Below, in pieces: positions 42,867 through 49,817 of a stretch of 64,000 nucleotides of DNA (position 1 is the first letter of the stretch; each line of letters starts with the position of its first letter). The translations under genes and the position numbers were made by a program. The DNA comes from Cyanobacteriota bacterium (GTDB taxonomy: Bacteria > Cyanobacteriota > Cyanobacteriia > CACIAM-69d): assembly GCA_022402445.1 (NCBI GenBank), contig JAKRSF010000013.1, positions 62,001 to 126,000 on the forward strand, written 5' to 3'. Under the pieces are notes generated by a model. It did not search any database, was not told the origin of the DNA, and worked only from the letters and a program-made list of their open reading frames with translations.

Positions 42867-43304
42867 ATGAGTCGCCTCCCCGAGATTGCCCACCCCCACC
42901 GAAAGCCCTACCCTAGCGACCTGAGCGATGCAGAATGGGAAGTGCTCCGTCCCCTCCTGCCCGCCTCCAAAGGCTTCGGTCACCCGGTCACCGTTGATTT
43001 TCGAGAAATCCTCAACGCCATCTTCTACGTCCAACGCAGCGGTTGTCAGTGGGAAATGCTCCCCCATGACCTGCCCCACCCCTCAACGGTCTATCGTTAC
43101 TTTTCCCGTTGGCAGCGGCGGGGACTCTGGCAACAGATGCACGACCAAGTACGAGGGCAACTGCGACAGCGCTCCGGTCGTGCCATTGAACCGACCGCTG
43201 CCATTGCGGATTCCCAGTCGGTCAAAACGACGGAAAAAAGGGGGAGGTGTACGGCTTCGATGGTGGCAAGCAGGTTAAAGGGCGTCGTCGGCACATCGTC
43301 GTAG
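42867..43304 (+). CDS. IS5-family transposase, N-terminal frame (orfA)
   Basis: 145 residues. It holds the DUF4096-like helical N-terminus (YPSDLSDAEWEVLRPLLP), the GCQWEMLPHDLP and STVYRYFSRW segments, and the first catalytic Asp in AIADSQSVKT. The homologous reading frame stops being transposase-like after TTEKRG (about 43240), where the second frame takes over. orfA continues to 43304 with unrelated residues. Confidence 0.88.
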   Translation: MSRLPEIAHPHRKPYPSDLSDAEWEVLRPLLPASKGFGHPVTVDFREILNAIFYVQRSGCQWEMLPHDLPHPSTVYRYFSRWQRRGLWQQMHDQVRGQLRQRSGRAIEPTAAIADSQSVKTTEKRGRCTASMVASRLKGVVGTSS

Positions 43305-43684
43305 ATACCCAAGGCTTGGGCGTGGGCATATTGGTAACGGAAGCGAATGCATCAGAGCGGCTAGGGGCCTTGGTGATTCTCGACGAGTCGCGAGAGAAGC
43401 TGGGGCAGTTGCAAAAGCTTTGGGTTGATGGAGGCTATTGCGGTATCAAATTCCATCAGGCGGTGCAGCGAATCTGTGGTCCGCAGGTAGAGGTGGAGGT
43501 CGTCAAGCGCCAGAGTAAGGAATTTAAGGCATTACCCCAGCGTTGGATCGTGGAGCGGACCTTTGGCTGGCTGAATCGTTTTCGTCGGCTGAGCAAGGAC
43601 TATGAGCTTCATTCGGAGGTGAGCGAAGGGATGATTTATGGAGCCCTGTTGAAGGTGATGCTGAAGCGCCTGGCGGTTTCATGA
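43247..43684 (+). CDS. IS5-family transposase, C-terminal frame (orfB)
   Basis: 145 residues in the -1 frame relative to orfA. It contains GRRRHIVVDTQGLGVGILV, VDGGYCGIKF (second Asp) and the ERTFGWLNRFRRLSKDYE region (Glu). The overlap holds an A6G5 run (43234-43244), a plausible slippage site giving a joined protein. The GTG at 43247 lies right after it and has no ribosome site, so independent translation is unlikely. Confidence 0.85.
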   Translation: MYGFDGGKQVKGRRRHIVVDTQGLGVGILVTEANASERLGALVILDESREKLGQLQKLWVDGGYCGIKFHQAVQRICGPQVEVEVVKRQSKEFKALPQRWIVERTFGWLNRFRRLSKDYELHSEVSEGMIYGALLKVMLKRLAVS

Positions 43685-46494: not shown

Positions 46495-47760
46495 TTAGAC
46501 ATATCGAGGATCGCGGTAGACCGTCAGCACCTGATGGATCCATTCCCCGTGGCTCCACAGTTGGCTCAAGGCGAGGGCGATCGCCAGCAGCATGACGGCC
46601 TGGGCGAGGCGATCGCGCCGTTGCAGCAGGGGCAGCAATCCCGCCATCACCCCCACCATCAGGGAGCCGGTCCAGTGGGGGGCATAGAGAAATAGCTCCT
46701 CCGGTGCCCCATAGACCGTGTGCAGGAGGCCATTGAAGAGCAGCACCCCCCCCACCCCCCAGAGCACGGGGGCGCGATCGCGGCCGTGGCGGTAGATGCC
46801 ATAGATCGCAATCCCCAAAAGCGCCACCCACAGCAGTTGGGTCAGGGCCACCGCGATCGTCCACTCGGTCAGATCAAAGCGCAGGTTTGGCGGATAGGGG
46901 GGCGTCGTCCGGCCAATCCAAAGGCCCGGTCGCGCCACGCCAAAAACCCCCAGGTACAGCACCATCCGCAGCACCCGACCGGGGCCAACCTCCCTGAAAT
47001 ATTGAGGATGACCCAGGCCGTCCTCATCGGAGATCCAAAAAAGGCCCGCCCCAGGCCAGAGGAGATGTTGCAAATAGGTGAGGGCGCTGCCCACCGCCAC
47101 CGTGATCGTTCCCCACAGGACCACCGATCGGAGGCGCTGTCGCCAGGTTCCACTCCCCAGACAGCCATAGATCCAGGCCGCCGGCAGCAGATTGGTGGCC
47201 GTCGCCCCAAAGGCCAAGAGCCCCGGCCCCAGGGCAGGCCAGGTTTGACCGGGCGATCGCAGCGCCACCGCCCACAGGCACAGCAAACTCAGCCCCCCCA
47301 GGCCAAAGGTCTCCGGCGTCGCGGAAAACCACACCTGCGAAGCGCTCAGGCCAAAGAGCACCGCCCCCCCCACGGCCACGGCGGGCGACGCCCCCAACCG
47401 CCGAAAGATACTGCGGGCCAGAATCACCCCCAGGGCACCAATCAGCGCCATCACCAGGACCACCGCCAGCCGTGGATCGCCGATCGCCCCGGTCAGGGCC
47501 ATGGTCACGGGGGTCGTCAGCAGCAAAAACAGGGTATGGGTCACGGTGTCCATGGGGCGGGCGTTCCCCTGGGTCATGTTGCGCATGACGCGCCGGAGAT
47601 CGGCCCCAAAGAGTAAATCCTGGTGGCTGTAGGCGGCGGAGTTGGTGATCGCGCCCCCCACGCAAAAGTACAGACTGAAAAAAGCGGCCCCCAGGGCGAT
47701 CGCGCCCCAGTCTAGCGATCGCCAGCGGCCAGCGGAATGGGGAAATCGGGAGACAGCCAT
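46495..47760 (-). CDS. Polytopic membrane protein, GT-C-like, unknown
   Basis: 421 residues with about ten membrane segments. The first periplasmic loop carries HQDLLFGADLRRVMRNMT, and the region after it reads like members of the GT-C (dolichol/undecaprenyl-phosphate sugar) glycosyltransferase superfamily, where acidic residues in this loop are important. I cannot name the family. It is the last of four minus-strand genes starting with a UbiA-type prenyltransferase, which supports a lipid-linked sugar role. Confidence 0.6.
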   Translation of the reverse strand: MAVSRFPHSAGRWRSLDWGAIALGAAFFSLYFCVGGAITNSAAYSHQDLLFGADLRRVMRNMTQGNARPMDTVTHTLFLLLTTPVTMALTGAIGDPRLAVVLVMALIGALGVILARSIFRRLGASPAVAVGGAVLFGLSASQVWFSATPETFGLGGLSLLCLWAVALRSPGQTWPALGPGLLAFGATATNLLPAAWIYGCLGSGTWRQRLRSVVLWGTITVAVGSALTYLQHLLWPGAGLFWISDEDGLGHPQYFREVGPGRVLRMVLYLGVFGVARPGLWIGRTTPPYPPNLRFDLTEWTIAVALTQLLWVALLGIAIYGIYRHGRDRAPVLWGVGGVLLFNGLLHTVYGAPEELFLYAPHWTGSLMVGVMAGLLPLLQRRDRLAQAVMLLAIALALSQLWSHGEWIHQVLTVYRDPRYV

Positions 47761-47837
47761 GGCCTAGACTCCAAAGCTCCTAAGGGATTGATCTAAACAG
47801 GGGTCGGGGAAATCGGGGGGATCAGGCTAGGAAAAAT

Positions 47838-48170
47838 CTAGGGCTGGGTGAGACCGGCGATCGCGATCGCGCCGATGCCACTGAGGATCAGGCCAATGCC
47901 CACCCAGGCCAAAAACGGCACCCGCTCCGCCAGCAGCCACACGCCCCCAAAGGTGGTCGCCGCAATGGTGAGGCCAATGGTGGTGGGATAGGCCAGGGAG
48001 AGCTGCGATCGCCCCAGCACCACCACATACAGCACCGTACTGAGGCCATAGACCCCCACCCCCGCCAGCAGATGGCCATTGATCCCCCGCCCCGATCCCA
48101 GCTTCAACAGCACCTGGGCGATCGCGTTGAGCAGGGCGATCGCACCGATCAGCACACCAACCATGGGCAT
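47838..48170 (-). CDS. Small multidrug-resistance/DMT-type membrane protein
   Basis: 110 residues, four membrane segments. A longer start at 48215 is possible; the ATG at 48170 gives MPMVGVLIGAIALLNAIAQVLLKLG. The EmrE proton/drug Glu14 is absent (Gln occurs in NAIAQVLLK), as in ArnE/ArnF-type flippase subunits rather than drug exporters. LSLAYPTTIGLTIAATTFGGVWLLAERVP and the Gly-rich fourth helix fit the family. In this neighbourhood a lipid-sugar flippase role is plausible. Confidence 0.75.
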   Translation of the reverse strand: MPMVGVLIGAIALLNAIAQVLLKLGSGRGINGHLLAGVGVYGLSTVLYVVVLGRSQLSLAYPTTIGLTIAATTFGGVWLLAERVPFLAWVGIGLILSGIGAIAIAGLTQP

Positions 48171-48288
48171 CGATAGGGATGGCACAGCACTTCCTCCAAA
48201 CCCACAAGGGGGCAACGCAAACTTCAGAAATTTAGAAATTTAGAATCAGAGACTCGGAAATGTAGAGCTTGAGGCATCTAGACCAGGG

Positions 48289-48825
48289 CTAGTCCGGCAA
48301 ACGCTCCAGCACCGGCTCCACCGGATCGAGGGGGGGATAGCCCGGTCCACCGTAGGGCCATTGCACCCAGCGGCCCGCCAGCCGTTCCCACCAGCGGGGC
48401 GGATGGGGCAAACTCGCCACCTGGATCCAGCGGCAGCCGATCCACAGGGCTCCCAAGCCATCCGTGTGCCAACTGTCCCCCACCACGGCCACGCGATCGC
48501 GCGGCAGATCCAACTGGCGCAAGGCCCGCTCAAAGGCCGACGGAAAGGGCTTGCGGGCCACACAAATCCCCTCCAGGCCAAAGCACCCCAGCCACCGCTC
48601 AAACCGCCCGCGCCGTTTGCCATTGGACAGGACAAAACAGGGCATCCCGCGATCGCGCAACTGCCCCAACCACCCCTCCACCCCGGGCGACAGCCAGCGA
48701 TCGTCCTCCGACACCAGGGTGTTATCCAAATCCAGCACCAGCCCCTCAATGCCCAGCTCCCGCAGCCCCTCCACCTCCAGGGCCGCCACCCAGCCACAGC
48801 GCGATCGCCGCACCCCCTTCCTCAT
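48289..48825 (-). CDS. YqeG-family HAD phosphatase
   Basis: 178 residues from the ATG at 48825, which overlaps the stop of the upstream UbiA gene as ATGA. A longer start at 48879 would run deeper into that gene. HAD motifs: I LVLDLDNTLV, II FVLSNGKRR, III KPFPSAFERAL, IV VVGDSWHTDGLGA. YqeG proteins are class IIIA HAD phosphatases; their substrates are largely unknown. The tight overlap with a prenyl-transferase gene suggests a phosphorylated lipid-sugar substrate, but this is inference. Confidence 0.88.
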   Translation of the reverse strand: MRKGVRRSRCGWVAALEVEGLRELGIEGLVLDLDNTLVSEDDRWLSPGVEGWLGQLRDRGMPCFVLSNGKRRGRFERWLGCFGLEGICVARKPFPSAFERALRQLDLPRDRVAVVGDSWHTDGLGALWIGCRWIQVASLPHPPRWWERLAGRWVQWPYGGPGYPPLDPVEPVLERLPD

Positions 48826-49817
48826 GTCACCAGCCCCCAGCGATGGAGACACAGCACCGCCGCCGTGGACACCACCCACCCCGCCGCCGTCAGCAGCATC
48901 GCCCAGTCCGACAGCAACATCTCCTCGGGCCGTTCACTCGTGGCGATCGCCCCCTTACCCCCCATCTCCCGCCGCCGCAGGGCCTCCTTCGGATCACTCA
49001 CCAACTGGTAGCGGAACACCCCATAGAGCACAAACGGCACCGTAATCAACATCCACTTCGTCGGAGCCCCCTGCAACTGCGGCCCCGCGCTCCAGAGGGA
49101 ATAGAACACGATCGCACTCGACGACACAATCCCCTCCATGCGGCTGAGCAAATCCATCGAATAGCGCAGCAGCACCGATCGCGTCTGGATGGGCTGCCCC
49201 TGGCGCTGGCCCTCGCCAAACTCCAGCATCAGCGCCCAGCGCAACTCCGCCTTCCGCTTCTCGATCGCGAAAAACAGCGACAGCATACTGATGCACAGCA
49301 AAAACCACGGGGAAAGGATCACCCCCGTCGCGCAGCCCCCCGCCACCGCCCGCAGCACAAACCCCGCCGCAATGCACATCACATCCAGCACAATTGTCCG
49401 CTTCAGACGGTAGTTATAGGCCACCTGCAACAGGCCATAGGCCACCAACGTGATCCCCAACGGCACCGCCTGGGCAAACCCCACCGCCACGCCCCCCGCC
49501 AGCAGCACCACCGCCATTCCCCAGGCCAGGGGGATTGGCACCTGCCCCGCCGCGATCGGCCGATGGCGCTTGATCGGATGCAGGCGATCGGCCGCCACGT
49601 CCATCAAATCGTTAATCAAATAAAAACCACTCGACACCGCCGCAAAGGCTGCGAAGGCGATCGCCACCTGGAGGGCAATCAATGGGCTGATTTCAAAGGC
49701 AAACAGGGGTGCCGCTGCAATCAACACATTTTTTGTCCACTGTTTCGGGCGAAGGGCCTTCACCAGGGCCTTGGGATTGGGGCGGGGAGACGATCGCGGC
49801 GGCGGAGAAACCGTCAT
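48822..49817 (-). CDS. UbiA-superfamily prenyltransferase, decaprenyl-phosphate phosphoribosyltransferase-like
   Basis: 331 residues, about eight or nine membrane segments. It starts with LRPKQWTKNVLIAAAPLFA, the hallmark of the phosphoribosyltransferase branch of UbiA. The catalytic motif is NDLMDVAAD followed by RHRPIAAG. The branch-typical LLRYSMDLLSRMEGIVSSSAIVFYSLWS is also present. The family enzyme moves phosphoribose from PRPP onto polyprenyl phosphate. It heads a four-gene minus-strand group and overlaps the HAD gene by four bases. Confidence 0.85.
   Translation of the reverse strand: MTVSPPPRSSPRPNPKALVKALRPKQWTKNVLIAAAPLFAFEISPLIALQVAIAFAAFAAVSSGFYLINDLMDVAADRLHPIKRHRPIAAGQVPIPLAWGMAVVLLAGGVAVGFAQAVPLGITLVAYGLLQVAYNYRLKRTIVLDVMCIAAGFVLRAVAGGCATGVILSPWFLLCISMLSLFFAIEKRKAELRWALMLEFGEGQRQGQPIQTRSVLLRYSMDLLSRMEGIVSSSAIVFYSLWSAGPQLQGAPTKWMLITVPFVLYGVFRYQLVSDPKEALRRREMGGKGAIATSERPEEMLLSDWAMLLTAAGWVVSTAAVLCLHRWGLVT

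Follow-up and report, generated by a model that had tools for sequence, protein, structure and literature searches.

In Citrobacter youngae, a polyprenyl phosphoribose synthase, a phosphatase, a flippase, and a GT-C glycosyltransferase have been characterised in a study that does not mention cyanobacteria (PMC11127046; PNAS 2024). The three-component set of C. youngae O1/O2 consists of ORF15 (PPPRS-PRP), ORF14 (a MATE flippase), and ORF12 (a GT136 GT-C) (PMC11127046). A second point of comparison is the mycobacterial DPA pathway (Rv3806c, Rv3807c, DprE1/E2, Rv3789, and the Emb/Aft proteins), for which the structure of Rv3806c has allowed ten residues (R22, K28, Y70, N73, D77, K87, R90, Q135, Y138, and K143) to be assigned to the binding of Mg, ribose, 5'-phosphate, and pyrophosphate (PMC10994848). 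Our search of the literature found no description of a lipid-linked ribofuranose route in cyanobacteria; the UbiA protein of PMC9235831 is a different one, of the Ebo type.

A four-gene cyanobacterial locus

The window analysed here, a stretch of 64,000 nucleotides of a cyanobacterial contig, contains four genes on the minus strand between positions 49817 and 46495:

48822..49817, minus strand: UbiA-superfamily polyprenyl-phosphate phosphoribosyltransferase (PPPRS/DPPRS-like), 331 aa, identified from NF008978, PDB 8j8j, and the Rv3806c residues
48289..48825, minus strand: YqeG-type HAD phosphatase paralogue, 178 aa, identified from TIGR01668, the HAD motifs, and its separate clade
47838..48170, minus strand: four-helix SMR/ArnE-like protein, 110 aa, identified from weak family matches and gene order
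46495..47760, minus strand: GT-C-fold membrane protein, probably a distant DUF6080 relative, 421 aa, identified from invariant residues, profile, and fold

The genes are consecutive, as the first-pass annotation had listed them, and the overlap it had described between the first two is real: the TGA stop of the UbiA gene and the start of the HAD gene overlap as ATGA (HAD start at 48825, UbiA end at 48822). The SMR gene most likely starts at the ATG at 48170, 118 bases beyond the HAD stop, and a gap of 77 bases separates it from the gene for the polytopic GT-C protein. The genes flanking the cluster in the window carried no clue to the acceptor. Elsewhere in the window (42867-43684, plus strand), two overlapping 145-aa frames resemble, by eye, an IS5-type transposase split over two frames.

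We consider it likely that these four genes together encode a lipid-linked pentofuranose pathway of cyanobacteria. The UbiA protein would load ribose onto a membrane lipid, as phosphoribose from PRPP, the dedicated YqeG-type HAD would remove the 5'-phosphate to give polyprenyl-P-ribofuranose, an oligomer of the SMR protein would flip this product outward, and the GT-C protein would pass the ribofuranose on to an acceptor outside the cytoplasm, for which a polysaccharide, either released or at the cell surface, is the likeliest candidate. We infer from sequence each of these reactions, the identity of the lipid and of the acceptor, and that the sugar finally transferred is ribofuranose; the order of synthesis, dephosphorylation, flipping, and transfer, which had been proposed from the window sequence, is supported by the conserved neighbours and the GT-C fold. 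A complete and testable lipid-linked ribofuranose route is thereby predicted for cyanobacteria.

As in the Citrobacter type, a PPPRS, a HAD phosphatase, a putative flippase, and a GT-C are encoded together, and the two systems would share a PRPP-using UbiA and the formation of ribofuranose without DprE1. They differ in that the phosphatase is a separate YqeG-type protein in cyanobacteria, whereas in Citrobacter it is a PRP domain fused within ORF15, and in that the candidate flippase is a 110-aa SMR-like protein rather than a MATE protein. The cyanobacterial GT-C appears to be related to DUF6080 and may belong to another transferase family than the GT136 of Citrobacter. The pathway had been called undescribed, which does not hold for its class, known from Citrobacter youngae (PMC11127046); in the literature searched we found no account of the cyanobacterial variant, in which the phosphatase, the flippase, and, apparently, the transferase family differ.

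The UbiA protein and predicted phosphoribosyl transfer

The UbiA protein matched PF01040, scored 252 bits against NF008978 (cut-off 207), and matched PDB 8j8j, annotated as a decaprenyl-phosphate phosphoribosyltransferase, at 137 bits. In the alignment, all ten Mg/PRPP residues of Rv3806c are retained (as R23, K29, Y66, N69, D73, K83, R86, Q131, Y134, and K139), and these positions are invariant in 53/53 cyanobacterial homologues. The initial description of the protein as decaprenyl-phosphate phosphoribosyltransferase-like is borne out by this score and these residues, and both the first-enzyme family and the PRPP residues are common to this locus and the mycobacterial pathway. Y157 of Rv3806c is replaced by F, a change that occurs in some mycobacteria (PMC10994848), and K208 is not conserved. 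Membership of PF01040 is broad and would also accommodate an ordinary quinone, chlorophyll, or glycerolipid prenyltransferase, with the other three genes serving unrelated membrane metabolism, but models of other prenyltransferases (excluding the phosphoribosyltransferase and HAD-UbiA types) reached at most 46 bits, and the PRPP-specific residues are invariant, so that we give this reading almost no credence. A role as an aromatic prenyltransferase was rejected on the NF008978 score and the conservation of the PRPP residues. At three loci (L009, L010, and L014), the UbiA matches lie inside open frames 469-509 aa long, which may encode fusions of a HAD with UbiA, as in Citrobacter ORF15.

A dedicated YqeG paralogue and an SMR-like protein

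The HAD protein passed the TIGR01668 (YqeG) cut-off (116 bits against 89), in agreement with the YqeG-type identity first proposed, and the motifs LDLDNTLV, LSNG, RKP, and GDSWHTD are readable in its sequence. YqeG relatives function in PG synthesis, and the protein has both the HAD-IIIA family and the over-cut-off score in common with the housekeeping YqeG/PGP phosphatase; it could on these grounds be a housekeeping phosphatidylglycerophosphate phosphatase (YqeG/Gep4-like) placed beside UbiA incidentally. However, a second YqeG gene in the same genome (C5:343996) scores better, at 162 bits, and the overlap of the HAD start with the UbiA stop argues against an incidental neighbourhood. At least two YqeG genes were present in 23/23 of the UbiA-HAD cluster genomes tested, compared with one or none in 19/19 others, and in a tree in which the HAD of the window sits on a long branch, the cluster copies formed a monophyletic clade, present only with the cluster, apart from the lone or housekeeping copies (support 100/100). 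The cluster HAD is therefore not an orthologue of the single-copy cyanobacterial YqeG. Because of the second copies, the separate clade, and the higher-scoring YqeG elsewhere, it is best read as a specialised, dedicated paralogue tied to the UbiA cluster, and a housekeeping role is very unlikely.

The SMR protein showed weak similarity to TMEM234, Multi_Drug_Res, and ArnE, all below the cut-offs, with TMEM234 as the best Pfam match (24.1 bits, cut-off 30.1). It was first described as an ArnE-like four-helix SMR protein; the ArnE model gave 25 bits (cut-off 92), and an SMR gene stands in order at 36 of 54 loci. Its family assignment is weak, and the putative flippase is the weakest part of the pathway assignment.

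Conservation of gene order

UbiA was found in 53 of the 388 genomes of the class that were sampled, and within the window's own family only in this genome. At the 54 cyanobacterial UbiA loci, with neighbourhood ORFs called mechanically and counts that depend on the regions fetched, a YqeG-type HAD gene lay downstream of UbiA at 36, an SMR gene in order at 36, both at 33, a GT-C homologue within 8 kb at 18, and all four genes together at 14. Since the same order and orientation recur over many cyanobacterial families, the neighbourhood is not due to chance, and the conservation of neighbours on which the initial proposal depended is confirmed. In some genomes the cluster is part of a polysaccharide locus that also encodes glycosyltransferases and an ABC exporter bearing a Wzt-like domain, a setting consistent with a polysaccharide acceptor.

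GT-C homologues were present in 20/388 genomes, 18 of which also carry UbiA (co-occurrence p 2.4e-15). At many UbiA-HAD-SMR loci no GT-C homologue lies close by, so that their transferase may be encoded elsewhere or replaced. In several genomes the GT-C homologue is far from UbiA or on another contig. The distance seen in those genomes, together with the small number of loci (18/54) at which the two genes are close, would also suit a scheme in which the products of the first three genes suffice to synthesise the donor and flip it, while the adjacent GT-C uses another lipid donor or serves another pathway. We think this unlikely given the presence of UbiA in 18/20 GT-C genomes and the renewed adjacency of GT-C homologues to UbiA in Paenibacillus and Prevotella-family genomes.

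The predicted sugar

No ALO-domain (DprE1) protein was found in the genome of the window by a search that detected the C. glutamicum control, and the DprE1 domain was not found in 20 of 23 cluster genomes. For this reason ribofuranose is favoured over arabinofuranose, and the donor is probably polyprenyl-phosphate-ribofuranose. The parallel drawn at first with the mycobacterial arabinan route, which concerned the first step, holds for the family of the first enzyme, but the product is probably another: mycobacteria use DprE1 and the phosphatase Rv3807c, whereas the cyanobacterial genome has no DprE1 and a HAD instead, the small flippase-like protein differs from the mycobacterial one, and nothing at this cluster points to an arabinan.

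DprE1-like genes occur at ten other UbiA loci, usually with a DprE2-like gene and never with the YqeG-type HAD (0/36 loci carry both). As the DprE1-bearing UbiA loci all lack this HAD, there are probably two types of cyanobacterial UbiA locus, one for a ribofuranose route and one for an arabinofuranose route. An epimerase encoded elsewhere could in principle convert the lipid-linked ribose before transfer, giving an arabinofuranose or xylofuranose donor after the same first steps; epimerases serve in this way in mycobacteria (DprE1/E2) and in Citrobacter O2 (ORF13) (PMC11127046), and other cyanobacterial UbiA loci do carry DprE1 and DprE2-like genes, one of them with a long GT-C homologue. Both the lack of an ALO-domain DprE1, the epimerase type that the search covered, and its separation from the YqeG-type HAD speak against such a conversion here, and we judge it improbable.

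UbiA, DprE1, and DprE2-like genes were seen together at nine loci (L074, L075, L078, L094, L103, L109, L111, L114, and L115), often with HAD or HAD-LPG_synthase_TM proteins, and probably represent an arabinofuranose route. The locus with the long GT-C homologue (L084) combines UbiA and DprE1 and lacks the YqeG HAD; the GT-C family thus occurs with arabinofuranose-type genes too.

Fold and family of the GT-C protein

The fourth protein had no confident family match and is divergent, with 18-25% identity to its relatives. Across 28 homologues from two phyla, D54, H75, T187, T189, N190, and Q231 (numbered from the start Met) are invariant, and the acidic D54 is predicted to follow the first membrane helix, within the extracytoplasmic loop where a conserved acidic residue is expected of a GT-C enzyme. 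The family profile matched the PMT_2 GT-C set with E 6e-6 and 85% probability, compared with E 0.2 for MFS; MFS transporters and reversed controls stayed at or below 0.3% probability. A single-sequence AlphaFold model (pLDDT 48) was too poor for use. With a model from a five-row alignment (pTM 0.61; mean pLDDT 54, a low per-residue confidence), Foldseek placed PglB, AftA, OST, and AftB near the top, and in VIA-align the first 47 rows were all GT-C (Z 10.8-15.7), followed by a row at 5.9. Fold matches include the mycobacterial arabinosyltransferases AftA, AftB, AftD, and EmbB/C, so that a GT-C fold is common to the window protein and the mycobacterial Aft and Emb enzymes. The family profile found no match among PDB sequences, and the fold assignment therefore rests on the profile comparison and the five-row model. 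As modelled, the protein adopts the fold of a GT-C enzyme and not that of a transporter, and the suggestion that it is GT-C-like stood up to structural comparison, which gave no sign of an unrelated transporter.

PF19558 (DUF6080) did not match the window protein itself but matched 6/28 family members (best 7e-14); the DUF6080 proteins of Prevotella were added to the GT-C profile by motif. We found no paper on DUF6080, a family without an assigned function, for which our data propose a candidate one. Among the GT-C homologues of cyanobacteria, many reach a length of about 1000-1100 aa (e.g. L073:13064-16378 and L084:8-3040), and their C-terminal halves show weak similarity to six-hairpin glycosidase models.

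The same logic in other phyla

In Paenibacillus pabuli and P. kobensis, UbiA, a PF12710 HAD, SMR proteins, and a GT-C homologue are encoded together in the run UbiA-HAD(PF12710)-SMR-SMR-GT-C, and other Paenibacillus carry UbiA-SMR-DUF212 divergent PAP2. A Prevotella MAG encodes UbiA, a PF12710 HAD, GtrA, and two DUF6080 proteins, and UbiA and HAD genes stood beside DUF6080 in 9/13 regions fetched from the Prevotella family. Loci of this family resemble the cyanobacterial ones in having UbiA, a HAD phosphatase, and a homologous GT-C (PF19558) in one run, often with GtrA, and differ in their PF12710 HAD, GtrA, and often two GT-C genes, compared with the YqeG HAD and SMR protein of cyanobacteria. 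UbiA and the GT-C thus appear to be the constant core, around which different protein families would fill the phosphatase and flippase steps in different phyla, and of all the comparative evidence, this recurrence speaks most strongly for the steps as assigned.

Nostoc heteroglycans carry D-ribofuranose pendant groups (PMC5635763), for which the pathway offers a candidate origin. We tentatively suggest, as a proposal somewhat short of an even chance, that DUF6080 and the cyanobacterial GT-Cs, including the forms of about 1000 residues with a glycosidase-like C-terminal half, are one new UbiA-phosphoribosyltransferase-linked pentofuranosyltransferase family across Cyanobacteria, Bacillota, and Bacteroidota, which in cyanobacteria would install the ribofuranose side groups of Nostoc-like surface heteroglycans.

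On two Chloroflexota contigs (L145 and L149), UbiA phosphoribosyltransferase-like genes occur as a tandem pair.
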